NCBI GenBank assembly: GCA_950295325.1
Contig: OX485806.1
Location: 37,014,001 to 37,078,000, forward strand
DNA: 64,000 nt
DNA from: Polytrichum commune
Taxonomy: Eukaryota; Streptophyta; Polytrichopsida; Polytrichales; Polytrichaceae
Reading direction: 5' to 3'
Shown piece by piece: positions 1 to 53,874 of this stretch. Within the stretch, counting starts at the first letter, position 1. Each line of letters opens with the position of its first letter. Below the pieces are notes generated by a model. The model saw nothing but the letters and a program-made list of their open reading frames with translations. It made no database searches and had not been told where the DNA came from. The position numbers and the translations under genes are program-made.

Positions 1-1068
1 CACTAAACGGATGTACGAAGTTGGACATTTGCCAAACACCCAAGAAAATTGGAGAGACTTTCAACACATCGTTGTGATTTCTTACAAACTTGTGACAACT
101 ACGGGCAACTTGAAGAGACCATCCGTGGCCTTTATTTTGCGTGCATAACAAGGGCATGCGGTCTTGGCGTGGTCCATTTTATCATGGATGATTGTAAGAA
201 CCTCTGTCGGCCTCATTATAGATAGTGCACGGTTCTTATAGTAATCTTGGCGGTGTGCCTCTTGATTGTTCACATGCTCAATATATTATTTTTGGTGTCT
301 AGTATGGGATTCAGTACCAATGGGGTGGGCGTCTCGAAGACCTTTGTATTTCTCACACGCCGTACACCTAGCGGACTTGTCCCCAGGTCTCTTCAAAATG
401 TATTCAACAAACTGTTGGTTTTTAATCACACTCAACTTGGACAAAGAAATGGGCCCACATCCCGCTCTGCGACCTACTTCGTTGATGTCCGTTAAGATGT
501 TCTTCCATTTTGTGCCCGTGGGCAACACCATTTGAACAACTTTCTCCCCTGTTGACAATGTCCTCGTCTTGTGGGGCATTGCATTGGCCAATGGCACTAT
601 GATGGTGAAGAGTGTTGCTGAGGCTTGTAGTGTAGCCTCCCTAGGTTTCTTTGTGCCCGAGTTGCCATGAAATCGAGAGCAGCAACCCAACGATGAATAC
701 CTCCTAAACCTATAAAAGTCAGCCTTGGAGACAACATGGATGATATACCATGCCGTACAACACATTTCGACATTTTTAAGGGTCACCACCTTATGACCAT
801 GGGTATCAATGTGCAAATTTCTGTGGACCTCGAGTTTCTTTGTGGATCTCATACGAAAATCCGCAAGCCACATCTCTTCACGAAGTGACCTAATTTTTTC
901 ACATGGGAAGAATTGGCAACATTTTCTCGCGTAACAGTCCTTGGCGGACACGAGACGGATAGAATCGTCTCCCAATATGCAATCCCGTCGTCGCTCCTTA
1001 TCACCGCGAGGCACGCGGTTAGAAGCATATCTGCGGAGGCCTTTGCGAGGAGGTAATTTGGCCAACAA
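1..1068 (-). pseudogene. Decayed protein of a probable transposon-derived plant family, running off the left edge
   Basis: The minus strand reads open from about 1068 down to a TAA at 286-288, then continues in the same frame to another stop at 82-84. The stop at 286 interrupts one continuous protein: the part before it has a Cys/His-rich stretch (CCQFFPCEK) and a long basic region, and the part after it contains the motif IHDKMDHAKTA. From memory this motif marks a multicopy family of large proteins in non-seed plants that looks transposon-derived; I cannot name a domain. After residue motif LPVVV the expected continuation is lost, so a second lesion or an intron lies near 80-90. Without RNA data I call it a pseudogene. 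It is divergent from and faces away from the large plus-strand gene at 6392. Confidence 0.5.
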
Positions 1069-1164
1069 AGCTGATTTCGCTTGTTTGTGCCGCCGCCCAT
1101 GATCTCACAAGCTTACTTCTTCATGGAGAACGCGACGAAGGGACCATCGACGTAAGGAAAATCT

Positions 1165-1605
1165 CTACGTCACCGGAACCTCGAGTAGAAGCAAAGAATT
1201 CAAGATGCACATACCAACATCATCGGCACCGAGGGGGTTGGCATCCACACATTCACGGGGATCGGAGTTTCTACATATGCCATTTGCCACCGGGACACCA
1301 AGCTCGTTAAGTAGAACGACATTAAGGCCCACCCATTCCTCTCTTCCAAAACCCACACACAATGGAATGTCATCGTTGTCATCACCGGAATGTAGACATT
1401 GTTCGTGCCCTTCAAAAGAATCATGGAAAGATGCATCCACATGCACCCCCAGCACATTTGTCATGTCAGTACCGTCCGCCAACGTGAACGTTAGTTCGCA
1501 TTCACTATCGGAGGACGATGCACTAATCCACAACTCCAATGAAATATATCCCACATGCATCGCCATTGTTCCTAAACAAACAACCATGGCATGAACAACA
1601 ACCAT
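1165..1605 (-). other. Possible upstream exon of the minus-strand gene
   Basis: A 146-codon open frame on the minus strand has an acidic, protein-like composition (runs such as SSSDSECE and GDDNDD), and its opposite-strand frame looks like its shadow. It ends 65-100 bases before the open frame of the 1-1068 gene and could be spliced to it, with a GTGACG donor near 1169. I found no convincing acceptor and no recognisable domain. It may equally be chance. Confidence 0.25.
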
Positions 1606-1705
1606 CCCAATGTTTTAAAGAACGCACAAATTATTTGTCAAAATATATGGCCCAGAAATCACAAACAACTCTTGGGGCATCCATGGGAAGGCCTCACACA
1701 CAAAG

Positions 1706-2602
1706 ACGAACGCACGTTCGAAAACAATACGAAGACATGGAAAAACTGCATGGGATTCCCATGGCAATTGACACCGGCATCAAGTTATATATCATTCGTG
1801 AAGGGTGTCGATATGATTTGTTGTCCAACCATGGCAACATGTTTGCGGCGGTTATGTATATGAACGACTGTTCGTAAGTTTTTGGAAAAACAGTAGATGT
1901 AAAAAACACTTTGACACGTCGCCATTGTGATAACTCAGGATGTACGTTTTCTGAAGACATGCCACCCTCTGTCGGGGAAATGATAGGGTGTACCACATCG
2001 CGTCGTACCCTAGTAAATAATGGGACGGCATATTTACGAACGACCGTTCGTATCTCTCTGTCATACTTTGGTTATATGCATGAAGGTGTCTGTAAGTCTA
2101 GTGTTGGATGCGATGGACATACTCCCAGGTGGTATTTACGAACGAACGTTCGTGAATTGGGAGAATCTAATTTTATACGGTTCATCTGGACGTGTGGGAA
2201 ATACGAGACGTATGCCTAGACGTCAATGAATGATGTTGCTGCATGTCTGGACATAAATCTCAGGTCGTCCTTACGAACGCACGTTCGCAAGTTGTGGTGA
2301 ATCCTATATGCATTTGGAGAAAACGGGCACGAGGGAGAATTACAGACCCACATCTCTATGATCCTGGATGTCATATTTACGAACGCACGTTCGTATATCA
2401 CCGACATGTTCTCATTGCATATAACTATTTATATGCACAGTTCATATGACGACCCATATCTGTATATATATATATATCTCAGTCTCTGAACGCAGAGTGT
2501 GCTCATATATGGTACTAACGAACGCACGTTCGTGAACTACACATCATTTCTCTGACCCATTTATTTGCCATAACGTATGTTTTACGAACGCACGTTCGTA
2601 AA
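1706..2602. repeat. Palindrome cluster A: eight copies of TACGAACGNNCGTTCGTA
   Basis: Copies lie at about 1706-1720, 1861-1877, 2033-2053, 2135-2156, 2269-2288, 2377-2396, 2517-2533 and 2581-2602. Spacing is roughly 65-170 bases and irregular. The arms (ACGAACG / CGTTCGT) are nearly invariant while the intervening sequence is unrelated. The two central bases are CA in five of eight copies, which suggests local amplification. Flanks of TTT and AAA extend the best copies to a 10+2+10 palindrome. The cluster lies upstream of the minus-strand gene, in sequence with no convincing coding frame. Confidence 0.9.
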
Positions 2603-3112
2603 CCTCCGGTATTTACGGCGGTATATACGGAGTCTACAGTTTGTCATGTACCTAGGAGGTGTGGGGTTGGCGGACAGGACAATGGCTTCCGCGCGCTCCG
2701 TCGGGTCTGGAACGTACACAACGTCTGCCGCTGAAAAGAACTTTGCTGTGGGGGGAAGAGCTTTAAGTACTTCTCTACGGGGGTTCAAAATCCCTTGGAT
2801 GCTCTTTAAAAAGCGGATTCCCGCTGCCTACTTTGACCTACCAATATGATATTTCATGCATGCGCGATTATATAAATAACATTATGTAAGGAACATGTAT
2901 TGCATGCACGCAACATGATATTGAAAATATGTAAATCGGTCGCATACCTTAGGTGTCACCAAGGTGTCATGAATATAAATATATATATAATAGATACATA
3001 ATGTCAAAATATGATGCTGGTTAATACATAATATTAAATGATTTGCGACCAAGGTGTGAAGTCCAAGTTAATTGACAATGGAGACCTAATATATGTTATG
3101 AATGTATGTGAT

Positions 3113-3148
<36 letters not shown>

Positions 3149-3863
3149 CACTCACACACATACACAATAAGGTAAACTCGAGTAAAAACATGTTGTGGAG
3201 GCCCCTAAAATTATAGGGATGATCATATGATTCACATCGAAACATGCCCGTAATATGCTCACCAAGCGCGTGAAAACCATTAAAAAGTTGGGTTAATCCA
3301 CAATGAACTAATCATATCTAGATGTAAGTTAGGGCTTGATTCAAATGTAGCCATATGTGTCAAAATAATGCATTAAAATGGCATGTGTGGAAATGTTTAA
3401 TTAATTTGGAATGGTGAATTTGATAGAGTAATCATAAGAAATGAAACCATACTTACGACAAGTCACACTTACAATTATGTGTTTTACATCCTACGAGAAG
3501 TATGTGCATGCTCATAGCTGAAAGTGTTGATTTAAACTAAAGTCTTAAGACATGCATGTTATAATCATGAGATTAAGTTTGGATTGTGTGATCAAATAGC
3601 ACTCAACACTATTAAGGGGAGAGATGGAGCATTTCAACACTCACTTTTCACCCGAACCAAAGCTTTATCCGAACTCTATTAATTTTGAATCTCAAAATGT
3701 CAATTATTGGCATGATTCTCAATTATTATAGTTATTGGGAACCGAATAAAGCAATTTCCAATCCAACCAACATCGATAGACCACTTTGACATGCCCATAG
3801 ACCACAACATGGACACATATATTAAGAAAGGTTGGTAAGAAGAAAAAAAATGTAGGAATGCAA
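2603..3863. other. AT-rich intergenic sequence with a dinucleotide repeat
   Basis: No gene is visible. At about 3111-3170 a TG run passes into a TA run of some 26 bases and then into CA-rich sequence, a mutable compound microsatellite that could fold on itself. The rest is AT-rich sequence without long open frames or recognisable repeats. Confidence 0.6.
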
Positions 3864-3895
3864 GGTTTAGGGTTTAGGGTTAGGGTTTAGGGTTT
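3864..3895 (+). repeat. Interstitial plant telomeric repeat (TTTAGGG)n
   Basis: Three TTTAGGG units and one TTAGGG unit lie in tandem at 3866-3892. Degenerate pieces (CTTAGGGTTTG, TTTTAGGGTTTG) continue to about 3962, separated by a repeated TGTGTATGTGGTT phrase. This is the plant-type telomere sequence in an internal position. Such short arrays arise at break repair sites and also occur as promoter telo-boxes. Confidence 0.8.
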
Positions 3896-3962
3896 GTGAT
3901 GGCTGTGTATGTGGTTATAGGGCTTAGGGTTTGTGATAGTTGTGTATGTGGTTTTAGGGTTT

Positions 3963-4769
3963 GTGGTGTGGTTGTTAATACGTTACATTACACACACAAA
4001 CAATATTGACTCCTAAAAACCTTGTATCGCACTAACTAAACTTATGAAACTGACAGTTGATGGTAGCCGTTATCCACAATCTCAAATTGGTCCTTTATGA
4101 ATGTAATATTTATTTGAGAAACCATGGTTCAAATTGAAAGAAATCTCGTTTCTGAAAACTGTATAATTGAAAACGTCGTATAGACATCCTTAGGGGTGGA
4201 TTCTTCATTGAAAACCTATGATGTACATTTGATGCTAGCGAAATAATGACCAATATGGCTCATTGGTTAAATGCAATTACATCATTGTTAAAAATTAAAG
4301 TTCAATGCACTATACGATTGTTAGTTCAATTTGACACCTAATTAAATTAATTGACGTCCTATTGGAAATTAAATTAATTGACGTCCTCCACCTCTTGCAA
4401 GAAAACGAATAGCCCCTCTCAACAATGTCAAATTGGGTCCTTTATGTACTATGTAATATATATTTGAAGAACCATGGTTCAACTTGAAAGTTATCTCGTT
4501 CATGAAAACTCTATACTTCAGAACACCATATACACATCCTTGGGAGTGGATTCTTCATCGAAAACCCACTAAATGACATACATTGTGCAATACTCATTAA
4601 CTTAAAGTTCTTTTTGAAAATATGTTTACAAGGAATACAAATGTAAAGGTACTAATGGGATACGGCACACAAAATTCATGTCTTCATATTAAGCTCTTGA
4701 AGTTATTGTGATTAATGCTTCCATCCCATATTATACATATACATATGCTTTGTATTGCCTTCATTACTT
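3963..4769. other. Intergenic, no gene seen
   Basis: AT-rich sequence. Two similar segments (about 4040-4230 and 4420-4590) share phrases such as TTTATGAATGTAATATTTATTTGA and ATCCTTAGGGGTGGATTCTTCAT with changes, so this part contains an old local duplication of about 370 bases. Confidence 0.45.
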
Positions 4770-5390
4770 CTACATCCATCTCCCTTCGCATTTTCCCCCC
4801 TCCCCCGATGTCCCCATCCTATCTCCTCCCATTTCCCCCATCACCCATCTCCACCCATCCCCGCACCCCTCCACATGCCACGTGGAACGACGCCAATGGA
4901 CCGTCGCCATTGGAACGACGCCACGTGGCAGCCATGGGGAAACCCTAGCGGCGGCGGCTACCACCCCGCGCCCCTTCTCTCTCCTCCTCATTGTCATTTG
5001 GAACCGAGAGAGGAGGAGCGGAGAGCTTAGCGTATTCGGAGCAAAGCTCTTGCAGATTTTAGAGCCTTCTTCCTTTTTGCATCAAGTTGTGTTTGAGAGT
5101 TGCATATTTTGCTTTAGAATTGACTGCTTGTGAGTAGAGAGCTTGAGGGTTGTAAGAATGTTAGTAGAGCTGAAGAGTTGCAATATTGGGGTTTGAAAGC
5201 TTGAAGCTTGAAGCTTGTAGCTGTACTAGAATAGGTGATAGGGTTTGTACATAAAGAGTGAGGGCTTGAAACTGTGATAAAGGAGTGAGTGGTGCAAGGG
5301 CGCATCTCAACAACCAACATTGTAGATTTGTGTGTAGTTTTGTGTTTTTTCAACAAGCCAGGAACAGTTTGGGTTTAGAACACTTCAATG
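4770..5390 (+). promoter_or_regulatory. Possible promoter and 5' leader of the 6392-14195 gene
   Basis: Composition changes abruptly here: a C-rich stretch (4790-4870), two ACGTGG cores (near 4880 and 4922), then CT-rich and GA-rich tracts up to about 5030, as is common at plant transcription starts and 5' leaders. Open frames across it are low complexity and do not look like protein. Downstream to 6391 the sequence is AT-rich, bears palindrome cluster B and ends in a strong acceptor (TTTTGTTGCAG), so it could be a long 5' intron. No transcript evidence is available. Confidence 0.3.
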
Positions 5391-5669
5391 TGAGTCGATC
5401 AATCCTTCTAAACTCACAACCCACATCCTGAATTGGTTCATTGTTGATTTCCATTTTTTTTGTTTGTATTATGAGCTTTGGCAGGTTTTGCATGCATTTT
5501 GAGCTTTGATATTCATTTTGAAGTTCAATTGTGTTCTGATTTACATTTTTTTCTTCAATTCAATCATTCTGGCGATGGGAAGAAGTATAGTCCACCGAAT
5601 ACGTATTCGTATATATACGAATATGTATATGTACGGACACTATGGGAAAAAATATCCAAATTAGCCACA

Positions 5670-6360
5670 TTTACGAACGATCGTTCGTAAATGCGAATAC
5701 ATAGTCTGGCAGCCAATTTTACGAACGCTTGTTCGTAAATACCCGCACCCAAAGCACTAGCCAAGCAATTTACGAACGATCGTTCATAAATGCCCTAAAC
5801 CCAAAGCTCAAATCCAGAACATAACGAACGCGCGTTCGTAAAATAAGCTGGAAAAACCAACATATACACCACCGTATCGTCATAATTAAAAATTAAAAAT
5901 TAAAACCAAATACCCAATCACATTGAAATATATTCAAACCAAATACACAATTACATAGAATATATTGAAATACGAATACCTACTTACGAACGCGCGTTCG
6001 TAAAAGAGTGCAATCTTCATTTAACCGACCAAAACATATTTATTTACGAACGATCATTCGTAATATATGATGAAAAGGTGCTGAATCAAATAGATGAATG
6101 ACTTATTTTATGCAACCAAACCCAACATGCAGATAGTAGTGTCGGGCCTGGTGTGTATCACTCACTCACGAACGTTCGTACTTACTATTATAAACATTTA
6201 TTTTATGGTGAAGATGGTATGAAATGTGAAAAACAACCCAGAAAACCACCTCCTTTACGAACGATCGTTCGTAAATATAATAAAAATATATTGCAACAAA
6301 TACATTCATAATGAGTAGTATCTTGGATTTGCATGTCATTTACAAACGCTCGTTCGTAAA
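5670..6360. repeat. Palindrome cluster B: nine copies of TACGAACGNNCGTTCGTA
   Basis: Copies lie at about 5670-5691, 5718-5738, 5769-5790, 5822-5842, 5984-6004, 6043-6063, 6167-6180, 6254-6275 and 6339-6360. Those at 5670 and 6254 are perfect palindromes including the centre (AT). The one at 6167 is collapsed to overlapping arms with no centre. Centres here are mostly AT or CG, unlike the CA of cluster A. The last copy lies about 30 bases before the acceptor at 6391, so the cluster sits in the presumed 5' intron. Confidence 0.9.
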
Positions 6361-6841
6361 CTCAATACTAAATGTTTATATTTTGTTGCAGATGGCAAGA
6401 TCAAGCAGAAGCGCGATTGAGATGTTCGCGGTGCAAGTCGATCGCCTCCCACAGTCGGTGTCCGACGATAACGGCAACGACAACTTTGTCCCCAAGGATG
6501 ACTTCATGGGGGAGTGGACGGCACTGCCAGAGAAGACCGCAGACGGCCTCTTCTGCATGTGATTCACCTACGAGCTGGAGACAAGACCGGACCAGCCAGA
6601 ACAGTGGGTTCAAATGAAGACGTGGGAGATAGAGTCCATAGAGGCCCAGGGGGAGTATGTAATTCTAGACATGAAGAACAAGAAGGATCATATCAACCTC
6701 TTGTTAGATTACCAAAAACATACCTTCTCCTATCAATACGCCCAAATGAACGTAGTCGAAGATGCCAAGCACTTCGACCTGGACGGCCTCTTCTCCAAAT
6801 ATGCGTTGAGCCCATACTGGACGGCAAGGAAATTGACCGCC

Positions 6842-8317
6842 TGTGAGGCCAAACCCACCACCCTTAAGCGTCCTAGTCCGGGTGATGGTTTTGAGAATCA
6901 CATTCACTTCATAACATCATAATGTGAATTGCTATGTGGCTCTCATGCCCAAGGTACTCACTTTATCTTAACTCAACTTGTTACATTATTTTGAATCTCT
7001 TGGCGTGTGGTGGAATTTGATTTCTCAAGGGTCCAACCCGCGGCCTTGGCCACGCATGCTCTTAAAGAGATTCCCCTAGCACCCTTGATCTTTACTTCCC
7101 TTGTATTGCCCTTGCCAGGATCCTCCACATTCTCCATTCGTTGCACACGTGATCTTATTTTGACAAAAAAGAGTGCAAGTGTTAAAAAAAACACTTTTCT
7201 CAATAGTCAATATTTGAACACAATCACTGGTGACACCACACATGACACTGCCTAACCTAATGAATCTAACACTTATCTATAAACCAATCTAATCTAAGAT
7301 AGTCTAATGTGTCTATGATTATTTTGGTAATGCCACCCACTTAAACTATGCCTTGGCTAATGAAACGAGCTCCCGGCTGCGGTTGTCTAATGCAGTCAGC
7401 CTCAGCTAATTAAACCAGATTCTTGAGCCTTCGTCTAACCGGTCCCAGCTGCAGTCCAGCAGCAGAGTCTCCCAGTCTCGGGGCCTTCGTCTAACTGGTC
7501 CCAGCTGCAGTCCAGCAGCAAAGTCTCTACCCAGTCTCGAGGCCTTCGTCTAACCGGTCCCAGCAGCAGAGTCTCACAGTCCAGGGGCCTTCGTCTAACC
7601 GGTCCCAGCTGCAGTCCAGCAGCAGAGTCTCCCAGTCCTGGGGCTTTTACTCAATCTTTTCTCTTTGTGCCTTAATCAATAAACTAATCTATTCCTATAA
7701 TGAACTAATCCCACCCACTAATTCCACTAAAGGGCTACCTAATCCCCACACATTGTCTCAAGCTCTAAGAGCTCACTCTACTTGAGAAGTATTGAGAGAG
7801 AGAGCTTAACTAATTAACTTCACTAAAACTAATAACCCACACACGTGGCTCAAGCTCTTAAGAGCTTGCTCCCTTGAGAGCGCTTGATGGAGAGAGAGGT
7901 AAATGAGAGAAAAAACACCTTAAGTAGCAAAGAGGGAGAGAGGGAGAGAGAGGTGAGGATAGGGTGAGAGGATTAGCACCTCCAATCACAATCCCTTAAC
8001 CTTCTCCTCCAAAGTAGGGACTAATCCCCATCCACCAAGCTTCCTTCTTCCTAAACTAACAAGGTGGATCCAAAAGTGGGCATTTAACCCGCGGAGCTCA
8101 CCTTGCTTCACCTTACCCCCTACTCACATTATCAAGGCATATTCTTATTGAAATCAAACCTTGAAATAATCACACAACACCACCTAATGCCTAAAGTTAA
8201 ATCCACACCACACTTCACTCTTTTTATGTTTTGTGAATAATCATAACACATCAAAGTCAAACTAAAATTGGTTTCGAAGAGTTAATCACCACATGTGGGC
8301 ACCATTTTGGGCTCACA
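6842..8317 (-). mobile_element. Solo-LTR-like insertion of the TGTGAG family (copy 1)
   Basis: It begins TGTGAGGCC and ends GGGCTCACA, so it has TG...CA ends with a short imperfect inverted repeat. It is flanked by a perfect 5-bp TSD, CCGCC (6837-6841 and 8318-8322). Copies 2 (47326-49602) and 3 (59722-61049) share both ends and much of the interior in the opposite orientation. No gag or pol lies inside, as expected of a solo LTR of a Ty3/gypsy-type element. It sits in exon 1 of the large gene, antisense to it. Removing the element and one TSD restores the codons exactly (Thr-Ala then Leu-Val). It carries a conserved 54-codon frame at 6973-7137 on the minus strand. Confidence 0.8.
7429..7650. 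repeat. Tandem repeat inside LTR copy 1
   Basis: About four copies of a 50-70-base unit built from GGCCTTCGTCTAACC, GGTCCCAGCTGCAG and TCCAGCAGCAGAGTCTC. The equivalent position in LTR copy 2 holds a different, much longer expansion of related CAGCAGAGCTGGGA units, so this part of the LTR is prone to tandem growth. Confidence 0.75.
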
Positions 8318-8322
8318 CCGCC

Positions 8323-9168
8323 CTTGTATTGAACATCTTCAAATACAACAGTGTGGTCACTGAGGCCAACAAGAAGAAGAAGAGCCCCAGGAAACCATCC
8401 ACATCAGGGGCAGGAGGATCTAGAAGTGCACCTAGGCCTGTGCCTTCCACGAGTAGGGCGACGGAGGGCCCCAGCAGACACTCCACGCCATCGAAGAGGA
8501 CAAGGGACGAGATGGAGAAATCAGGAGTAACAGACACCACGGAGGTGAGCTCGCCTCCCGTAATGCCTACCCCCTTGAAAAAGGGCGAGAACCCTGACGC
8601 TATGAAGGCCACAAGGATCCTTCGAGACTTCAACAACTACTCGAAGGATTGCTGGCCCATGGGACGCCACTTCACATTCAACGTAGACTGCTTCAAGTGC
8701 GAGATGTCCCCCAACAAATGGGTGGTTCGGTCTCGCGAGAGCGGTGGTGTGAAGTGGCAGATCAACAATCTCATGAACAATGTCAAGTGGGATAGGCAGA
8801 CCGTTTGCGTCATGCCCAAGGGGCTGACATCCCGTCCGACGGAGAAGGACTGGCCACGGATCCAGAATGGAGAGTTCTGGATCATAGACGGACAACACAG
8901 CTTGGAGGCGTCCCAGATAATCCTCAAGGACGACAACTTCCAGCATGAGCTGAAGGAAGACTTGCGCTACTGGAAGGCGTTCTTGGTGTGGTCGGACGAT
9001 TGGGACAAGCTGCGGAAGATTTCCACCTTCCTCAACTCCGGCAACAAGATCAAGGCCTTCGAGGCGTCGTGGGCAGTCAACATAGTGGCTGCAAGGGACG
9101 TCTGGGTCGCCCACGGGTGCCCCCCTAAGGAAAGGGAGAACGCCAAGACGCCATCTCCACAATGGAAG
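8323..9168 (+). other. Exon 1, 3' part: DGQH-motif region
   Basis: After a Lys/Ser/Pro-rich linker (KKKKSPRK, PSTSGAGGSRS) the protein reads into a folded-looking region containing GEFWIIDGQHSLEAS, followed about 50 residues later by a segment with an FLNSGN motif. The DGQH motif followed by a downstream Asn-containing segment resembles the DGQHR family, whose best-known member is bacterial DndB, linked to DNA phosphorothioation control. The resemblance is motif-level only. The exon ends in AAG before a GTGAGC donor at 9169. Confidence 0.45.
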
Positions 9169-9289
9169 GTGAGCTTACGAACGAACGTTCGTAAATCTCT
9201 TTGACATTCAAATTTTCAAGTTCTTTGACATTCAAATTTACGAACGTGCGTTCATATTTTGTGCGTTACTGATGCCTTTCTTACTGCAG
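9169..9289 (+). other. Intron 1 with a palindrome near each end
   Basis: The 121-bp phase-0 intron has donor GTGAGC and acceptor TTACTGCAG. It holds two copies of the palindrome, at 9175-9194 (centre AA, 6 bases inside the donor) and 9237-9256 (centre TG, about 33 bases before the acceptor). The intervening sequence includes a direct duplication of TTTGACATTCAAATTT. Confidence 0.8.
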
Positions 9290-10174
9290 GCATTCTGCGA
9301 CGCGATGGTGGACAAGTTCTCCTCCATCGACATGAAGTCTACAACAACCAAGTCTGTCCTGGAGCTCAAGGGTGAGCTCCGCCTCATCTGTTGCAACAGG
9401 GACACTTGGGAGTTGTGGACACAATTTTTTGATGCGCACATCTCGGGCGATCTGGTCAACCCCGACACCGAGGAGAAATACAACGCGGAGAAGACCGGGG
9501 AGGCCCCTCCACTATTGAGGGAGTTCTTTAGGTCCCTTCAAGGGTTAACAGAGTCCAAGTTGCAAAGGTGCGCGGTGCATCTTCTTGGGAACACAGTGGG
9601 AAGAACCATCCCATACCCCAAGATATTTTTGAAGAGGCCAAGACACAAGCCCGGGCCTCCCCGTTCGAGGCAGGGGAGAAAGGACATGCCCTTCTACAAC
9701 CCCTTCATGGCCAAGTTCAAGGAGCACAAGTCGCCGGACATGAGGGAGCCTCACGTTTGGCTGTGGATAGTGGAGCAGGAGAAGTTGTCTGTCGTCACCG
9801 ACCTGTACGAGAAGACGATCAAATTCGAGTACAACATCTTCCACAACACATACGTGCCCGCCAAGACGGAAGGGATCGTGGCCATCAACGAGGCCAGGGG
9901 AAACAAGCATGTGGGGGCGGTCATCCTCGTTTTCTTAACGTACAACGCGCTTCGGAATGGGCGAGCACCTGTCAAGGCGAATAGTACTTTCAAGAAGATC
10001 TACAGCATCCCACATCCCCCTCCCAAGGATCTGTTTCAGGAGACGTTGTACACCGTCTTCCCGGCGCTGGAACTCAGGTTGGAGTTCTACGTCTCCGTTT
10101 TGCAGAGCGTGGCAATAAGCGGAGAGACCGTGTACAACGTTTGTGGAGGCAGCAAGTTCATGTACGCTGCGATG

Positions 10175-10315
10175 GTAAGCTCTCCAACTAATATTTACGA
10201 ACGCTCGTTCGTAAAGTTCACCTCAACTTGTGTTGGTTTTTGATTACATTGTTTCTCGTCGTTGATTTTTACGAACGTACGTTCGTATATTCTAACGTAT
10301 TTGCTTGGATCTCAG
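10175..10315 (+). other. Intron 2 with a palindrome near each end
   Basis: The 141-bp phase-0 intron has donor GTAAGC and acceptor TTGGATCTCAG. Palindromes lie at 10194-10215 (centre CT) and 10268-10290 (centre TA), about 20 bases after the donor and 25 before the acceptor. The paired arrangement repeats that of intron 1 although the remaining sequence is unrelated. Confidence 0.8.
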
Positions 10316-11310
10316 ATGCTTGGCCTGGTCGTCAACAGCTTCGTTGACGCCGTCGACGAGGAGGACTTCTAGGTGCACAGGGCGAAGGCGTCCACGATGG
10401 ACCTGGAGGACATGACCCTCCCAAGGACGGACATCAACATGCCCGTCGACGAGGGCATGCCCGCCATGGAGACGGATGACGACGAGCCCGCGCCCTCCTA
10501 CAACATCGAGGCGATTATCTAATCCTTGGACGTCACGCCTCTGCAAATTTTGGGGCCGTCGGGAAACCCATCCGACGTGCAGGGGACTCCGGGTGGATAC
10601 ACAGGGTCGTCCGTGGGGACAACCCAAGATGTCCTCCCCGCGCGAACGTCTGGGGCGGAGGCATTCGGCACTCCCGGGGGATGCTCGACATCGGTGTCGC
10701 CTAGGCCAGTCGTGGTTCCCAGAATGGAGAACCTCGATATTCTGGACCAACGCTCCCGCCCGTCGTTGGACCACTTCTGCAACACTAGGCGGAAGATGAA
10801 GAAGACCCCCTACGTGGAGTTGCCTCCGGGGGCAATCATCAAGGTCTCCGATGAGGACGAGGGAGATATGGAGATAATGGTCGAGCTGGGGGTCGACTTC
10901 GACAAGAACAAGCAGGTCAAAGAGGAGGCCCTCTCCGTTGCCGAGCTTAACGCCAAGCTCGAGCAAAAGATGAAGGAGGACATGGTGAAGGCTGCTGAGG
11001 AGAATGCGAAGAAGATGAGAGCAATTCAGGAGGAGCTAAGGCAATCCAACGAGAAGACGGACGCCATCCTTGCCATGCTCAACAAGATGCAGAGCTTCTC
11101 GGCGCCCCCCCCAGCCGGCTTATCCCTTCCCTGGAGGATACCCATCGCAATACCCCCCGCAGGGCCAGTACCCCCCGCAGGGCCATTTCCCAGGAGGACC
11201 ATCACACCAATCTGCGCCCCACCCTACGCCTGTTGGGATTCCTCCGCCCCCAGAAGTTCCCTCGACCACCTCCCACGATGCTGTCGCGGCGGCCATCCAG
11301 GAGGACGAAG

Positions 11311-11334
11311 ATTTACGAACGCGCATTCATGAAT
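11311..11334 (+). repeat. Palindrome copy inside coding exon 3 (first)
   Basis: TTTACGAACG then a CG centre and a slightly altered right arm (CATTCAT). It reads in frame as LRTRIH within the acidic segment. In this frame the palindrome has no stop codon. Confidence 0.75.
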
Positions 11335-11687
11335 CTTCAGGTGCTGCAGTCCTCACCCCTCCCCCTTCAAGGGTAGGACAGCCCTCAGACACCGATACGT
11401 CCTTTTTCACCGTCATCCCCAGGGTAGTAGACAGACAGGGCGATGACTCTGCGCGACACACTGACATGGTCATTGTGGAGGACACGCAGGGGAGCCCCAA
11501 TGACGCACCAGGAGTGCAGGGGATGGACGTGGAAGAGACCCCGGCTGCGTGGATGGAGGATGTCCGGATGGACGCGCTCGACCTGGGCGCCAAGGAAGAG
11601 GACGCGCTGCGCATCCAGCAGACACATGCCTCTCAATCGGAGCGTGAGGCCGACGCCATGGAAACGGAGGCGGCTGCAGCTGCGGAG

Positions 11688-11709
11688 GTTACGAACGCGC
11701 GTTCGTTAA
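11688..11709 (+). repeat. Palindrome copy inside coding exon 3 (second)
   Basis: TTACGAACG, CG, CGTTCGT, reading in frame as VTNARSL. In this frame the consensus would end in the stop TAA, but the copy has TTA instead, so the reading frame passes through it. Confidence 0.75.
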
Positions 11710-11768
11710 TCGTTGAGGAGGGACCTGTTGCTCAGTCCAGCACCGCTGCCCCTCCCCTCGATGACAAG

Positions 11769-12342
11769 GTAAATCTCCTCTGAGAATACCATTTTTTGCG
11801 AACGCGTGTTCGTAACCTCACTAACATCGCGATGTTTTTCTCTTCATCGACATCCCCTGGCCCACGCGAGCCCTCTTCATCGACCCCCCTTATGGACGAC
11901 CAGTTTTGTAGGACACGGCATCATTTTGCCTTAGGAAAATGTGATAGACTATCACGTGAGAAATGTAAATATTCAATGGATTAATATATGGGCTTATGTT
12001 ATCTGCATCGCATTGCTTCAAATTCTGTGCCCTCAACCCCTTCTCGTATATTGTGGATGTTGATGCGATTATGTTGATTCTTGCATAACCACCTCAGTCG
12101 CGAACGCTCGTTCGTGAAAGGGTGCGACCCCCTGTCCACCTCCTAGACGAACGACCGCTCGTAAATGCACCGCCCCCGCAGCCTTCATTCACGAACGGTC
12201 GTTCGCAAGTGTGCCCTTGTGCACATTTTCCTTGCACTCTCCTCACTTCCTCGTCTTTTCCCATAATGCATCGTCTTCATTTTCTACGCAAAAATTTCAT
12301 TATTGGATCATAGCATTAAACTAGTCGCGTTGTTCATCACAG
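11769..12342 (+). other. Intron 3 with four palindromes
   Basis: The 574-bp phase-0 intron has donor GTAAAT and acceptor TTCATCACAG. One palindrome lies close to the donor (11796-11815) and three towards the 3' side (12099-12120, 12145-12165, 12188-12208). A C-rich stretch at 11850-11900 could be a skipped exon, but the frame passes cleanly without it. Confidence 0.65.
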
Positions 12343-13062
12343 GACCCCCCGGAGATAGGTCGCAACCCCTCGACCAGTGGACCTCACACCCAGAACAATC
12401 CTTTCATCGTTTTTGACCTCAACGGGGTCTTGTGTCACACCCAACACATCCCCAGGGTCCCCACGCGTCCCTTCCGTCACCTCGACGAAAGGGACTACGA
12501 CAGCAAGCTCAACACCATAATTAACCGCAAGGCTGTCCGCGCCCGTCCCGGCTTGTGTGACTTCCTTCGAGAGGTGGTCGAGTTCGCTCACGTCATTGTG
12601 TGGAGCTCCATGGTCATGGAGAACACGGATCCCATCGTCCACTTCTTGTTCCGCGATCTCCCGAGCCCTTGCCTCGTCCTCGGCCAAGAGGACTGCGACG
12701 AGCTGCTCGACGAGAAAGGTCAACCGGTGCCCAAGTTTGGCGGTCGAGGCAGAGGACAACAGTTCCTCAAGGTCCTCCGGTCTAGACTCTGGCGAGGCGT
12801 CCCCCGTCTGCAAGGGACGCCCCACGGGTGGTGGCCGACTCCTGAGAACACCGTCCTCATCGACGACAGCCCCACCAAGAGCGTCTTGAACCCCCCGGGC
12901 AACGTCATCTTCCCGGACACTTGGACCGGCGATAGGAACAACACATTTTTGGTCGATAGGCTAGCCCCATACCTCAGAAGGCTCGTGCTCCATGCCGGTA
13001 GCATCCCATTTTTTGTTAGGTCCAACCCCTTCGGCAATGCGGCACTTAGCCCCCGCGATAAT
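12343..13062 (+). other. Exon 4: FCP1/NIF-like HAD region
   Basis: The exon encodes the series expected of the FCP1/NIF branch of the HAD phosphatases: IVFDLNGVL (motif I, near residue 1236), VIVWSSM (motif II) and VLIDDSPTK (motif III, near 1384), then a region like FPDTWTGDRNN. Family members dephosphorylate proteins such as the RNA polymerase II tail. Here motif I reads DxN rather than DxD, so the second acidic residue is missing. Related plant proteins with DxNG exist as far as I recall, so this may be a non-catalytic or altered subfamily. Without splicing at 13063 (GTATAT) the frame would end at a TGA at 13108-13110. Confidence 0.6.
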
Positions 13063-13209
13063 GTATATAAGAGCATCATTAGGCTCGCGAAAGTCAATAA
13101 ATTGATTTGAAATGCCTCCATGTCTTTGCTTGTTATCATGTGGTTCACATATCTAATGCTTGCTCCGTTTTTGGATGTCTTTTGTTGTTGTTCTTGTTCT
13201 TGCCCATAG
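13063..13209 (+). other. Intron 4
   Basis: The 147-bp phase-0 intron has donor GTATAT, a branch-like CTAATGC, a long T/G-rich pyrimidine tract and acceptor TTGCCCATAG. It carries no palindrome. Using it links the HAD exon to the downstream Pro/Ser-rich open frame. If it is not used, the gene ends at 13110. Confidence 0.5.
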
Positions 13210-13455
13210 CCTGCCCCCATATGCGACGCCCCTGGAGTCGACGGCCCTTCCTGTCCCCTCTCGCCCCCTGCCTCCCCTTCCCGCGACGTCACGGACTTCC
13301 AAATGCCATCCCTCTACCAGTTCTCGGCGGTGGACGCGGCCTCGGCCGTGGATTACTCCCGCGACGTCGGCATCGACGACGGCGTCGTCAACAGCCCGCC
13401 CCCCGCACTTGTCGCCCGCACCTACGCCCCGTCACCCTCCCCCCTCTCCAAGGAG

Positions 13456-13475
13456 AAACGGACGCTCGTTCGTTT
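13456..13475 (+). repeat. Diverged palindrome copy in exon 5
   Basis: AAACGGACG, CT, CGTTCGTTT: the right arm is intact and the left arm has one change. It reads in frame as KRTLVR. It is the rightmost recognisable copy in the window. Confidence 0.55.
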
Positions 13476-13734
13476 GGGGCACCTCTTGCCCTCGAAGGAC
13501 GCCGCCGTCGCTCGTCGCGGGCCGAGCCGGCGTCTCCGCATGGAAGGCCCCTGTTGCCACACCTCCCCCGCCGACTCCCTTCCTCCCCCCGCAACGTCCT
13601 CCGCGATCGTGGGCCCTCCACGCCTCGACTCCCCCGCACCATTCAACAGTGCAATAGTTCCATCGGCTCCGGATGCTGCCGTCGACGCCCCGCTCGTGCC
13701 CACTGTCCCCCGCATGGACGTCCCCAAAGCCAAG

Positions 13735-13886
13735 GTGCCCTCTTCAACCCTAAACCCCTTTCCCGCTTTTGCTTTCCTTGTCTTGCGTGTGCGTGCCGTT
13801 ATCTTTACGAGCGCCCACCCCAAACCGCTCTCATTATTTTCCCCACTCCATTCTTATTCTTACCTTCCTATGACGTTGTTTCGCAG
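13735..13886 (+). other. Intron 5
   Basis: The 152-bp phase-0 intron has donor GTGCCC and acceptor TTGTTTCGCAG. A TTTACGAGCG half-site near 13804 may be the remnant of one arm of the palindrome. Exon 6 (13887-14195) encodes a basic C-terminus ending in a Lys/Ala-rich tail. Confidence 0.55.
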
Positions 13887-14195
13887 GTGGCTACCCGCTC
13901 GCTTGGTGCCCGACCCTCCTCCACGTCCTCCTTGGATAGGCACGCCCTCAAGGCCGTGTCATCCGAGTCCGATCGTTGTTTGGCTCTCCGCCGTAGCGCA
14001 AGACATTCCCTCTCGCAAACGCACTTGTATTCCACTCACAATACCACTCCGTACAATTCGGGAGCGTGTCCGGAAATTTGGAAGAATGACACGTATTCCG
14101 GGTCCGTCAACAAAAACGGTTATAGCCGCGGGCCTGAGATTTTCAAAGCCATGGAGGCTGCCAAAAACAAGGCCAAGGCCGCGAAAAAAAATTAG

Positions 14196-16980
14196 TAGGA
14201 CGGATGAGTGGGAATAGAAGCGTACTAGTGGGACGGACTCCCCAAGTGCGCTTAGGTGTAGAACATATTAGTGCTTACTTTCTATCTATTTCAAGTTACT
14301 CAAGACATTGATGGTATTTCCATTATATTTGTATTTCAATCCTATTGAATTCAAACAATTTCCAATCATTCCCCGCATATTTCCCTCCATTCATAACGAT
14401 TTCTCATTTCATACGCAACTATTTTCATGTATGCTTCATATTTTTGTTCACTTTGATGCCTTTATATCTAATAATTGTATCCAAAATTATACATATTTGA
14501 CTTTTAGGTTGTCATTTCTGGTCCAAATTTGAAAAGTGCGTCCTTAAATAGTCTCATAATCAACAAAAAGTCTCCAATTACCGAATATAGTGTTATGTTT
14601 TGTAAGCGCACAATACATTAGGAGATCTCCATATGCACATGATGATGTCCTCCCATTTTGAAAAGGTGTTTGTGCATCAAGAGCACTCCTGGTAGACATG
14701 ATGGTGTCCTCACTCTTTATGAATGTATTAGGCACCGGGAGGTCTCTTGGTGCACATGATAGTGTCATGTTTTGAAAGCGCAATTTGCATTGGAACACCT
14801 CCCAATTGCAATGCAATTCCTTGTGTTCAAATGAGTAACCTCAACTCTCTTCTAGTCTTAGAAGTGTAAACTACAATTGACAACAACGTTTCATGACACT
14901 TGAAGTATCAAAGAGTGCCTTCCTTTTCTTCTAGGCTTAAACAACACTTTCAGGACTTGGGGAGCTGTGTTTGAAGGATAGGTGAATGGACAAGGAATGG
15001 AGCTTGCAGGAATGTCGAAACAATCACATCTTACTAAGTCGGATGTCAACAAAATTCAAGGCTTGCCAAACGATATGCTTGAGGAGATTGGACACTTAAT
15101 CCTTAATTAGGAAGAAAGTTTGTTGTAAAGTTGTGGTAGAAGGCGTGACTTCACTTGTATCGCTCACTGACATGTGCGACATCTAGAAAATGAACTCGTT
15201 ATCATAGCTCTCTAGCCGCTTGGCACCTTTCTGCCTAATAGTTAAGTAGAGTGTAAAAGCAAGTTAGGCGGCTCAAAAAATAATATTCTAAAATTGGGCA
15301 TATTTAAAAAACAATTTACAATAAGTTAGACATTCATCCAAGTCATTTCTATAATTTATGGATGGTTTTCCTAATTTCATCCAAGGCAGCTACGATTAAC
15401 CTAAACACTTCCCTTATCCAATTCATGCTTGTATTGTTTTTAGACCATGAGTGAGATTGATGCCGCGTGAAGACATTGTTGAAGTTATTTGATGTTATTT
15501 TGTTGGATTCCAGTGAATGTCACTTGCATAATTGTGATTTTAGGAATTATATGGATGTTATTCCTTTTTTTGGACACTCAACAAAATTAATTTCCCATCA
15601 ATTTAGGCACCTTTAGAACTAATTATTTATGCCCAAGTTGCTAGAGAGCTACGATATAAGGCATGAGATCATGACAATGTTGGGTTGTGAGTGTTCGGAA
15701 AAACAAATAAATTATATGACTTAAACCTACAACATCTAGTACAAAACATAGCTCTTTCGATCACTCTGCTTCGACACGGATCTTTTTGTGTCGAAATCTA
15801 TGCTCTTTTGGACCAATGTTGGAGCTATTTGGTCATTTGGGCCACCACTAATGTTGTGTTATTAATCTTTTATATTATAATCACATTCTTGTGGGCCATG
15901 GAACCGTATTGCTATTTTGTTAGCCATGCAAAAGGTCCATGAAGTTTTTCTAACACTTTCTGGCTATTTACTAGATATAGATTCCATTCAAGCTTACTCA
16001 AATATTTAGATCCCATGTACATTATTGAATGTATAATTTAAAGGAACTTGTTTTTCTTCTTTGTTTAATTTGGGCATCTTCTTATAGTGATCTATTTCCC
16101 CTCCTTCAAATTGTTATATTTTTGGCTACTCATTCAAGCTTACATATTAGATTCCATGTTTATTATTGAATATCCATGACGGAATGTTCTATCTTTATTT
16201 AGTTCTAGAGATTTTATAGATCTAGATGTGAGTCACCTTCCTAAGTACACTAAATATGATATTTAGTGTCACCAATTCTATTGTCTTGCTCAATACTAAT
16301 TGTAAGCCACAGTGTAGTGTCACCAACACCAAATGTTGACCCAACATTATTTGTCATTCCTTGTAATTTTTTTGGGGGATTATAGATTTATAGTGTTGAA
16401 ATTACTGTCACTTAACAAGTGAATTTTTCATCCAAATTTCAATCATGCATGACAATATTTCATCACAAGTTGCTGACAAGAGAAGGGAGGGTTTTGGCCA
16501 ATGGATGAAGTCATCCACCATCCATGACAATGTTTCCTCACTTATTCATAAGTGTCCTCCGAAAAGTTACCATAGTGACATAAAATACCATATGACACTA
16601 AATATTATATTTAGTGTAGTTACTACTTTGTGAGAGAGAGAGAGAATTACTACACTTGTTAGATGTGAGTCACTTTCTTAAGTAATTACTATTGTGAGAG
16701 AGAGGAATTACCACATACAAGTATGTCTTCATACATCCAACACAGAAGCCATGAAATAATAAATTGTCCGAGTTTACTAATTTCAAATAGTCATGAACCG
16801 AATTTAGGTTCAGAGACCCAAATTAGTCTAGGCCAAGTCATTTACGATGAATCCTCCAAAAATCTATAAGGGAGAGGTTTTTATATTGGATGGATGAGAG
16901 GTACCTTATTTGGCACATTCTTATATTGCAAGGTAAAAGCGGTCTTCACATCTAGAGTGCTTCATTGCCCTCTCTTTGCA
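14196..16980. other. AT-rich intergenic sequence, no gene seen
   Basis: No convincing open frame. From about 16240 the sequence contains the ACACTAAATA...TATTTAGTGT palindromic repeat (16241-16263 and 16588-16612) and short phrases that recur at 36.4, 43.0, 59.6 and 61.3 kb. This part therefore belongs to the left edge of the duplicated AP2 units. Confidence 0.5.
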
Positions 16981-19378: not shown

Positions 19379-20581
19379 CTAGGATGAGCCCGTCTTATGC
19401 AAAGGAGAACACGTATCAACCATGTTTGGCAAATCACTTGCAAACATGAAATACGATTTGTTCATATTCTCAACCACTCCAAAACCTTTGTTACAGGTAT
19501 TTACTTCTCGAGGAGCTTCGTCCACAACTTCAAGTGATGGATATTTCTTCAAGGTCATGATATCTTTGGAATTTGGTTGAATGTCAATTTGTGTTACAAG
19601 AGGAATCATTTTGCAATCTTCGTTGACCAAAGCACATGTTGGCATTGCCCTTGCTTGAGCATTAGGTTCGCCCAAGAAAATTGTATGAGTGCTCAAAGGC
19701 ATGGATGGGGACGCTGAAACATCAAATGAGTTGTCTATTGCATTTCTTTGATTACTTGGCATGATACACCGCATGGTGGAGTTTGAGACGTGCTTACTAG
19801 AGTCCTCAAAATTGAGAGTTGTTTTCTTTTTGTATCGAATGACGGCAACGTCATATGCTCGAGCAGCTTCCTCTGGAGTGTCAAAGTTACCAATCCACAT
19901 CTTCTTGTTGGTCTTCTTTTCAGAGATCTTGATTTCAGCAACCCAAGGATGTTTGCGTTCCGGACGCCAACGTACGCCTTTGTAGCGTGGGATGACTGCA
20001 CCTATAAGTTGCTCCAATTCTCGAGTCATTGTTCGTGTCATTGTCCTTTCCAACCTCCAAGCTCTTCCACATTTTGGAACAAAAAATTGTGTTGCACGAA
20101 GATCATAGCATTCAATTACTATTGAAAATTTTGTATGCCCTTCATGTTCACGAAATAACGAAGAAACATGATTTACTGCAATTTTTGACATTCTTTTATT
20201 ATAGTCTAAAAATGCAAGTATGGATTGGGAGGGCTTTGTACCAAAAGATTGTATTGAGAATTCCAAAAAACCACATTGATTCAATGTACTAGAATCCAAT
20301 ACTAGACGATGTTGTGGTGTTGTTGTTGGATTCGTGATATTATAATACGGTGGCGCACTTGGATTTGACAAATATGAGATTGAAACTCCCGACTCATTGA
20401 CACTCTTTGTGTGTAAATCTATACATTGGTGAAACAAATGAGAAATAGATGTTGCAATTTTTTGTGGAAACAAATAAATACTACCTTTTATACAATAATC
20501 ATCCCATTGAGCATGTACCTCAAACTTGTAAGAACCATTTTCAAGTGTTGAATATTGACATGTTGCTTTGGTGAACTTCAT
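19379..20581 (-). CDS. AP2-domain transcription factor, unit 1
   Basis: 400 codons from the ATG at 20581. Residues about 1-190 form an N-terminal region I do not recognise, conserved in units 2 and 3. The AP2 domain spans about residues 199-259: YKGVRWRPE, WVAEIK, MWIGNFDTPEEAARAYD and LNF are the expected strands and helix. AP2/ERF proteins bind short GC-rich or DRE-type elements in the nucleus. There is one AP2 domain, as in the ERF/DREB branch, but the long N-terminal domain is atypical. The C-terminal 140 residues are Ser/Pro-rich and less conserved. In all three copies a TTTGTAG acceptor-like site lies about 33 bases before this ATG with an open frame between (ASIESNKLKDV), so an upstream exon is possible and the ATG may be internal. 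Confidence 0.8.
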   Translation of the reverse strand: MKFTKATCQYSTLENGSYKFEVHAQWDDYCIKGSIYLFPQKIATSISHLFHQCIDLHTKSVNESGVSISYLSNPSAPPYYNITNPTTTPQHRLVLDSSTLNQCGFLEFSIQSFGTKPSQSILAFLDYNKRMSKIAVNHVSSLFREHEGHTKFSIVIECYDLRATQFFVPKCGRAWRLERTMTRTMTRELEQLIGAVIPRYKGVRWRPERKHPWVAEIKISEKKTNKKMWIGNFDTPEEAARAYDVAVIRYKKKTTLNFEDSSKHVSNSTMRCIMPSNQRNAIDNSFDVSASPSMPLSTHTIFLGEPNAQARAMPTCALVNEDCKMIPLVTQIDIQPNSKDIMTLKKYPSLEVVDEAPREVNTCNKGFGVVENMNKSYFMFASDLPNMVDTCSPLHKTGSS

Positions 20582-29136: not shown

Positions 29137-30261
29137 CTAGGATGAGCCCATCTTTTGCAGAGGACAATATGTATCATCCATGCTCGGCAAATCACTTGCA
29201 AACATGAAATATGATTTGTTTCCATTCTCAACCACTCCAAAACCTTTGTTGCAGGTACTTACTTCTCGAGGAGCTTCGTCCATAGCTTCAACTGGTGGAT
29301 ATTTCTTCAAGGTCATTGGCATTGCCCTTTCTTGAGCATAAGGTTTCCCCAAGGAAACTGTATGAGTGCTCAAAGGCATGGACAAAGACGTTGAAATACC
29401 AAATGAGTTGCCTATTTCATTTCTTTGATCACTTGTCATGACAAACCACATGGTGGAGTTTGAGACGTGCTTACTAGAGTCCTCAAAATTGAGAGTTGTT
29501 TTCTTTCTGTATCGAATGACGGCAACGTCAAATGCTTGAGCAGCTTCCTCTGGAGTGTCAAAGTTACCAATCCACATCTTCTTTTTGGTCTTCTTTTCGG
29601 AGATCTTGATTTCAGCAACCCAAGGATGTTTGCGTTCCGGACGCCAACGTACGCCTTTGTAGCGTGGGATGACTACACCTATAAGTTGCTCCAATTCTCG
29701 AGTCATTGTTCGTGTCATTGTCCTTTCCAACCTCCAAGCTCTTCCACATTTCGGAAGAAAAAATTGTGTTGCACGAAGATCATAGCATTCAACTACTTTC
29801 AAAAGATGTGTAGGCTCTCTTTGTTCAAGCAACAAAGAAGAAATAGTATTTATTGGAGTCTTTGACAATACTTTAGTATACTCAAAAAATGCAAGTATGG
29901 ATTGGGAGGGCTCTGTACCAAAAGATTGTATTGAGAATTCCAAAAAACCACGTTCACTCAATGTACTAGAATCCATTACCATACAATGTTGCGGTGTTGT
30001 TGTTGGATTCGTGATATTATAATATGGTGGCGCACTTGGATTTGACAAATATGAGATTGAAACTCCCGACTCATTGATAGTCTTTGTGTGCGAATCCATG
30101 CACTGTTGAAGCACTTTGGGAGAAAAAGATGATACAATGTTTTGTGGACACCAAATAGAACTACTTTTGATCAAATAATCATCCCATTGACCATGTACCT
30201 CATACTTGTGAGAACCATTTTCAAGTGTGGAATATTGACATGTTGCTTTGGTGAACTTCAT
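29137..30261 (-). CDS. AP2-domain transcription factor, unit 2
   Basis: 374 codons from the ATG at 30261. The N-terminal domain and AP2 domain match unit 1 closely and the AP2 domain is complete (YKGVRWRPE to LNFEDS). Against unit 1 it lacks about 27 residues of the C-terminal region (the equivalent of TCALVNEDCK to NSKDI), an in-frame loss outside the DNA-binding domain. The acceptor-like TTTGTAG and short open extension before the ATG are conserved. Nothing in the sequence prevents function. Confidence 0.8.
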   Translation of the reverse strand: MKFTKATCQYSTLENGSHKYEVHGQWDDYLIKSSSIWCPQNIVSSFSPKVLQQCMDSHTKTINESGVSISYLSNPSAPPYYNITNPTTTPQHCMVMDSSTLSERGFLEFSIQSFGTEPSQSILAFFEYTKVLSKTPINTISSLLLEQREPTHLLKVVECYDLRATQFFLPKCGRAWRLERTMTRTMTRELEQLIGVVIPRYKGVRWRPERKHPWVAEIKISEKKTKKKMWIGNFDTPEEAAQAFDVAVIRYRKKTTLNFEDSSKHVSNSTMWFVMTSDQRNEIGNSFGISTSLSMPLSTHTVSLGKPYAQERAMPMTLKKYPPVEAMDEAPREVSTCNKGFGVVENGNKSYFMFASDLPSMDDTYCPLQKMGSS

Positions 30262-53757: not shown

Positions 53758-53874
53758 AGTGTGTGAGAACCTTGAATTAATTCCAAAGTTTAAAATCAAA
53801 TTCTAAATTTTTTCGAGGGCTTTGTAGCCCTCATGGTACATTAAGTGAGTGGGAGCTTGCATTTGAGTTGCAAA

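Follow-up and report, generated by a model that had tools for sequence, protein, structure and literature searches.

Palindromes of a DNA transposon in Polytrichum commune as candidate family-specific binding sites for an element-encoded dimer

A 64,000-nucleotide stretch of the Polytrichum commune genome (assembly GCA_950295325.1, contig OX485806.1, positions 37,014,001 to 37,078,000, forward strand; hereafter the window) raises a simple question: why are its first 13.5 kb crowded with near-identical palindromes, and the following 50 kb free of them? An initial annotation, made from the letters of the window, described a locally confined motif with conserved arms and a freely varying two-base centre, held that it was not an ordinary transposon repeat, and offered as roles a binding site for a dimeric protein, a minimal mobile palindrome, or a structural element in RNA. 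In one sense the statement on transposons was wrong, as we find the palindromes inside a DNA transposon of high copy number, named F540 here, to which they belong. We think it probable, from the pattern of the sites, that they are binding sites for a dimer encoded by the element itself, most likely the product of its second gene, and that they mark the element's own family against silencing or for controlled transcription.

The palindromes and the transposon that carries them

Scanning the whole window at up to two mismatches to ACGAACGNNCGTTCGT returned 29 rows, all within 1706-13473, two of which overlap (6164/6168). Counted without overlap at up to three mismatches, the window copy has 28 sites, and no palindrome was found from 13.5 to 64 kb in the window-wide scan, exactly as annotated. 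In 100 shuffled versions of the window that preserve dinucleotides, matches averaged 0.05 and never exceeded 1. The annotation had also proposed a genome-wide scan against chance; run for the exact F540 18-mer, it gave 4,680 occurrences in the 408-Mb genome and 0 for the reversed control, so that "locally confined" holds inside the window but not across the genome. On the window shuffles and the reversed-pattern controls together, a chance origin of the palindromes was rejected. The spacer between the arms is rigid genome-wide, with 2 bp at the 4,680 exact sites versus a single site with 1 bp (reversed control 0) and none with 3 bp (reversed control 1).

Among 257 sites from nine loci, the consensus is TTTACGAACG-NN-CGTTCGTAAA, a longer conserved stretch than the annotation had given, although its conserved arms stand. 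The two central bases do vary, but unevenly: CA is the most frequent (75), followed by CG (37), CT (30) and TG (30), with the remaining 12 dinucleotides accounting for 85 combined. Every F540 site holds four CpG, and given this content, recognition of the sites could sense methylation.

That the palindromes belong to one repeated unit was shown by comparing the window with other palindrome clusters on contig C1; their ownership by the element was judged from the copies compared, which are a part of the 4,680 sites. Among the palindrome sites listed, all four matches to the first exon of the second gene (the GQH exon) on C1 below 2.54 Mb lie inside palindrome clusters, and a few palindromes stand alone (e.g., C1:2367516 and C1:2485597). 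The ends of F540 are inverted repeats, AACACTATATTCG... (AACACTA), flanked by a 4-bp duplication, ATGT. The features of the window copy are as follows, with E denoting expectation value, LTR long terminal repeat, and NIF NLI-interacting factor.

C4:37012058 (L008:8058), left of the window: left start of F540
L008:8456-10000, minus strand, just left of the window: DUF7869 domain (PF25273, E 6.6e-39)
-1942 to 14594, plus strand (window part 1..14594): DNA transposon F540, 16,537 bp, bounded where copy-to-copy homology stops
1..1614, minus strand: probable 5' part of the putative transposase gene, from open frames, exon limits approximate
1705..2600: eight palindromes, cluster 1, lying upstream of the transposase gene
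5672..6359: nine palindromes, cluster 2, in the second gene's 5' region and probable first intron
6392..9168, plus strand: predicted exon 1 of the second gene (GQH domain), with a cag/ATGG acceptor just before 6392
6842-8317, plus strand: inserted LTR-like piece, TGTGAG...CTCACA, ~1.48 kb, with a 5-bp duplication, CCGCC, at 6837 and 8318
9169..9289, plus strand: predicted intron 1, palindromes 9176-9193 and 9239-9256
9290..10174, plus strand: predicted exon 2, internally deleted here relative to copy C
10175..10315, plus strand: predicted intron 2, palindromes 10196-10213 and 10270-10287
10316..11768, plus strand: predicted exon 3 region, weak coiled-coil-like matches and low complexity, broken by stop codons in the window copy
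11769..12342, plus strand: predicted intron 3, palindromes at 11797, 12099, 12146 and 12190
12343..13110, plus strand: predicted exon 4, NIF phosphatase-like domain with the motif DLNGV (PF03031, E 2.2e-15)
13457..13474: a degenerate palindrome, the last of the series, 1.1 kb short of the right end in the 3' region
ending at 14594: right terminus of F540, ..CCAATTACCGAATATAGTGTT; termini read, target duplication ATGT on both sides

We take the DUF7869 gene to be the transposase, and the families below are named after the open-frame lengths of their DUF7869 genes. Across the genome, at least 84 copies of the transposase part were scored, 28 of them without an in-frame stop, and at least 131 copies of the GQH exon, 101 of them without one. 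The LTR-like insertion is missing from copies A, B, and C and has no palindrome in the window scans; the annotation's palindrome-free LTR inside the island is thus confirmed, CCGCC duplication included, and its suggestion that the palindromes came first gains support from the copies without the insertion. Short telomere-type repeats resembling TTTAGGG also lie within the transposon, at 3864-3959.

Conservation of the sites and their divergence between families

In introns 1 and 2, one site lies soon after the 5' splice site and a second ~30 bases before the 3' splice site. We compared the arms with their surroundings in six distinct copies for intron 1 and five for intron 2; E13 and E16 were set aside as near-duplicates, and copy B was left out for intron 2, where it is interrupted. 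In intron 1, 415/420 arm positions are identical (98.8%) versus 671/1226 of the remaining intron columns (54.7%), and in intron 2, 280/280 (100%) versus 587/1297 (45.3%). Flanking exon columns are identical at 1297/1534 (84.6%, intron 1) and 749/934 (80.2%, intron 2), and the arms are therefore better conserved than the surrounding coding sequence. Of the arm columns that vary among the 257 sites, 82 show a change on a single side and 3 the same change on both sides, and the centres of partner sites in the same intron are complementary in 0/8 and 0/7 pairs; as the copies are related, these column and pair counts are not independent. Arms conserved in their letters, a rigid 2-bp spacer, and one-sided changes are more in keeping with a rigid, DNA-bound protein dimer than with a folded RNA.

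A DUF7869 profile search of the genome, in which 150 places were scored of 1,491 candidates, revealed several families, and five of them have palindromes of one layout, each with its own letters (exact genomic copies in brackets; the reversed control was 0 in every case).

F540: TACGAACG-NN-CGTTCGTA (4,680, as above)
F539: TACGGACG-NN-CGTCCGTA (1,382)
F692: CCACGGGTG-NN-CACCCGTGG (819)
F610: CCACGGGCG-NN-CGCCCGTGG (208)
F502: TTGGGTCG-NN-CGACCCAA (10,011)

The half-sites of the five families are ACGAACG, ACGGACG, CACGGGTG, CACGGGCG, and TGGGTCG. In the sister pairs F540/F539 and F692/F610, the palindromes differ by one base, which is changed on both arms. We looked at 13 further loci, made up of four of the 131 second-gene matches (L013-L016) and nine of the 150 DUF7869 matches (L017-L022 and L029-L031). 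The motif of the locus's own family is present in 11 of the 13 (F540 four, F692 three, F539 two, F502 one, F610 one), and the motif of a non-sister family in none. Outside these 13, copy C has three F502-type sites past its right end, and L011 has one of F692 type. In addition, own-family palindromes occupy homologous positions in introns 1 and 2 in F540, F539, F502, and F692, the last with one site in each of the two introns. F610 has 11 sites at up to one mismatch, of which 10 are exact and none is of F692 type.

The two genes and the ends of the elements have not diverged at the same pace. Relative to F540, the transposase is 82% identical in F539, 64% in F502, and 50% in F692, with a second piece at 32%. 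The second gene, compared over exons 1, 2, and NIF, is 43, 52-55, and 62% identical in F539, and 34, 37, and 44% in F502. In F692, exon 1 stands at 21% and exon 2 at 27%, omitting a 29-residue exon-2 piece at 38%, and a NIF domain was not found by comparison with the F540 second-gene query. F610 is closest to F692 in this respect, at 87% for the transposase, 72% for exon 1, and 66% for exon 2. The ends are known for F540, F539, and F502, which share the termini AACACTATATTCG despite their different palindromes, and were not found for F692; in all three copies with both ends read, 4-bp target duplications (ATGT, CCAT, TTAA) lie next to AACACTA. The ends and the transposase thus stay more alike, and the palindrome and the second protein diverge further.

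The sites can also be found apart from the second gene. A derivative copy, L007 (C1:638001-648000), together with the adjoining L012, has 44 sites at up to three mismatches, many in tandem arrays with spacings of 34, 93, and 160 bp, and exons 1-3 were not detected in the 18 kb examined there; sites kept without detectable exons are consistent with action in trans. Tandem spacing of 78 bp was also seen in L018.

The second gene and its product

The exons of the second gene were placed by eye from splice-site letters and homology, and are predictions. In the window copy, exon 1 is disrupted, with an in-frame stop at 6560 as well as the LTR insertion, whereas in L003, L013, L014, L015, and L016 it is open for ~432 codons. 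It carries a conserved (I/V)IDGQH motif, of which GQH is invariant in a six-row alignment covering four families. In exon 3, a HAUS-augmin3 match (E 2e-4) falls under the curated cut-off. The NIF domain has the motif DLNGV in three families (window exon 4, L002, and the F539 and F502 loci). The usual phosphatase motif is DxDGT/V; because DLNGV replaces the second acidic residue, the NIF domain may be catalytically inactive, a transposon-borne pseudophosphatase. Viral contigs yielded no relatives of exon 1, exon 2, the transposase, or the NIF domain, and we found no description of these elements in the literature, DUF7869 included, in a search to which subscription journals and preprints did not belong.

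Beyond the transposon, the window contains an open copia-type LTR retrotransposon polyprotein of 1,364 aa at 53845-57936 (RVT_2, E 3e-79). Three open frames with an AP2 domain, on the minus strand at 19382-20581, 29140-30261, and 38707-39897, are of similar length and spaced ~10 kb apart; they form a small host gene cluster beside the transposon, the match of the third lying just under the Pfam cut-off.

Candidate roles of the sites and known precedents

In our preferred reading, each palindrome would consist of two half-sites bound by a dimer that the transposon makes itself. The binder would most likely be the second-gene product, with its GQH domain, coiled-coil-like region, and NIF-like domain. 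With sites spread across promoter regions and introns, such a protein could coat its own family's copies while sparing those of other families, and family DNA would then be kept out of silencing, or its transcription controlled, in trans for all copies. When the specificity of the protein changes, the sites of the element would change along with it, giving each family its own address. Binding, the identity of the binder, and the effect on chromatin or transposition, anti-silencing included, are what we infer. Of the roles offered by the initial annotation, the binding site for a dimeric protein fits best, given the fixed 2-bp spacing, the letter-conserved arms, and the symmetric arm differences between families.

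Several observations weigh against this reading. The second protein has no recognised DNA-binding domain in profile scans, in which all matches were under curated cut-offs (HAUS-augmin3 at E 2e-4, N-SET at E 0.008 and HTH_70 at E 0.21, others weaker or none), and AlphaFold models of exon 1 (six sequences) and exon 2 (one sequence) reach a predicted local distance difference test score (pLDDT) of 32-33, too low to be usable. Phylogeny by itself may explain why second protein and motif diverge together, as the transposase diverges too, only less. The four related families are sampled at one to three loci each, F502 and F610 at one. L021, with a distant DUF7869, is without a palindrome of such layout. 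L022 has only a quasi-palindrome, GGTGNGGCATATGCCNCACC, in a 59-bp tandem array; this array, at 3621-7778 (C3), adjoins a distant DUF7869 gene, and the quasi-palindrome, GGTGAGGCATATGCCCCACC, which is perhaps the address of a further family, occurs 283 times in the genome (reversed control 0). In F610 (L031/L032), no palindrome at up to one mismatch was found between exons 1 and 2, and its second intron lies mostly outside the DNA examined. The F539 element, assembled from L027, L019, and L024 (C7:2388514-2406121), is mixed, with 10 exact sites of its own, 7 more within one mismatch, 2 exact F540-type sites, and 3 hybrids of one F540-type and one F539-type arm; it is possible that the hybrids are intermediates of an unfinished switch of address. 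Finally, two sites lie in frame within exon 3 (11314-11331 and 11690-11707), and a restriction to noncoding parts is not strict.

The closest working precedent, by analogy, is VANC and the VANDAL transposons of Arabidopsis. VANDALs are Mutator-like, and no Mutator-type match was found in Pfam scans of the transposase part and the second-gene exons. VANC is reported to strip DNA methylation and to bind short family-specific motifs in introns, between genes, and in noncoding terminal regions (PMC5735166); VANDAL motifs are described as multiplying by tandem repeats and differing between families (Hosaka 2017, PMC5735166; Sasaki 2023, PMC10398659). The two systems share a transposase with a second gene, motifs in intergenic regions and introns, differences between families, and turnover by tandem repeats, and with the exception of the two exon-3 sites, the family-specific motifs here are enriched in noncoding parts of the element, as in VANDAL. 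However, the VANDAL motifs are 8-9 bases long and not palindromes in the accessible text of PMC5735166, whereas the sites here are ~20-bp palindromes with a 2-bp spacer. The elements here also differ in their CACTA-like ends, DUF7869, and the NIF-like domain of the second protein.

A different precedent lies behind the view that the palindromes are accessory sites in transposition, bound by a TNPA-like transposase partner that helps to pair the ends or regulates excision, like CACTA subterminal repeats. In CACTA elements (En/Spm, Tgmt*), repeated motifs that vary from family to family lie beside conserved CACTA ends and are reported as the presumed targets of an element-encoded protein, TNPA (PMC2613891). 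Such element-encoded binding proteins with family-specific motifs speak for this view, as do the CACTA-like termini here, which in F540, F539, and F502 read (AA)CACTATATTCG on both sides. As to a transposase of the TNPD/tnp2 type, the 515 aa of the transposase part that were scanned matched only DUF7869 (Pfam, E up to 10), which may be a distant relative. Unlike in CACTA elements, the target duplication is 4 bp instead of 3, and the good sites are internal and intronic rather than subterminal. The outermost sites of the window copy stand 3.6 kb (left) and 1.1 kb (right) from its ends; in F539 and F502, all sites at up to one mismatch are >2 kb from both ends. At up to one mismatch, the terminal 1 kb on each side is free of sites in the window copy, F539, and F502. 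Degenerate sites lie 490 bp from the right end in F502 (two mismatches) and 706 bp in F539 (three mismatches), which is some support for accessory sites. With many good sites in mid-element introns, we regard this role as unlikely, though it deserves serious attention. A role in transcription or self-regulation only, in which the second protein or a host factor would activate or repress the two promoters, with intron sites as enhancers and no anti-silencing, would account for the two largest clusters lying upstream of the two genes. However, the sites run on through introns and even into exon 3, and a fixed host factor would leave family-specific palindromes unexplained, so that we consider it quite unlikely.

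The two other roles in the initial annotation fare worse. If the palindromes were RNA elements, hairpins or pairing across introns would aid splicing or make small RNAs, as might be suggested by the pairs of sites placed towards the two ends of introns 1 and 2. A hairpin loop could vary in length, yet the spacer is rigidly 2 bp; the arm changes are one-sided rather than compensatory, the partner centres are non-complementary in 15/15 pairs, introns 1 and 2 of F692 hold a single site apiece, and none was found between exons 1 and 2 in F610. On the rigidity of the spacer, the one-sided changes, and the centres, RNA structure was rejected as the main role, and we give it very little credence. A functionless mobile or satellite-like palindrome, spreading alone or by tandem duplication, finds some encouragement in the visible tandem expansion in L007 and L018 and in the lone sites on C1. 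Nevertheless, the arms are kept while most of the surrounding intron sequence is lost, the sites hold homologous places, both in the copies compared and between families whose letters differ, and the window's other 50 kb is free of them; a palindrome moving by itself is hardly credible.

A bolder reading would treat the GQH domain as a nucleotide-gated clamp, a eukaryotic counterpart of ParB-parS. The clamp would load on the palindromes, spread along the element, and hold it open against silencing, the NIF-like domain would act on the transcription machinery, and each family would have its own, mutually blind version. The site parS is likewise a palindrome, of about 16 bp. DGQHR/DGQQR is given as the signature of DGQHR/DndB proteins, which have a ParB/Srx fold (PMC4619093), and (I/V)(D/N)GQH here resembles it in motif only, with R replaced by S, N, or T in the six-row alignment, so that the full pentapeptide DGQHR does not occur there. 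Membership in the ParB/DGQHR group failed every profile test. The DndB model PF14072 has 0 matches in the genome, and searches of Pfam, NCBIfam, PDB sequences, and plasmids (tblastn) gave nothing above chance level, such as aminopeptidase P (E 2) and a single Cas1 (E 0.06). We consider the clamp a long shot.

We know of few cases that explain how a transposon protein finds only its own family, and how its specificity changes without the loss of scattered sites. Here, a single genome holds at least five related families, one of which, F539, still has hybrid sites. Since the sisters F540/F539 and F692/F610 differ by a single base per half-site, a switch of specificity is directly testable. If the dimer reading is true, self-addressing of transposons would have arisen outside VANDAL with quite different proteins.

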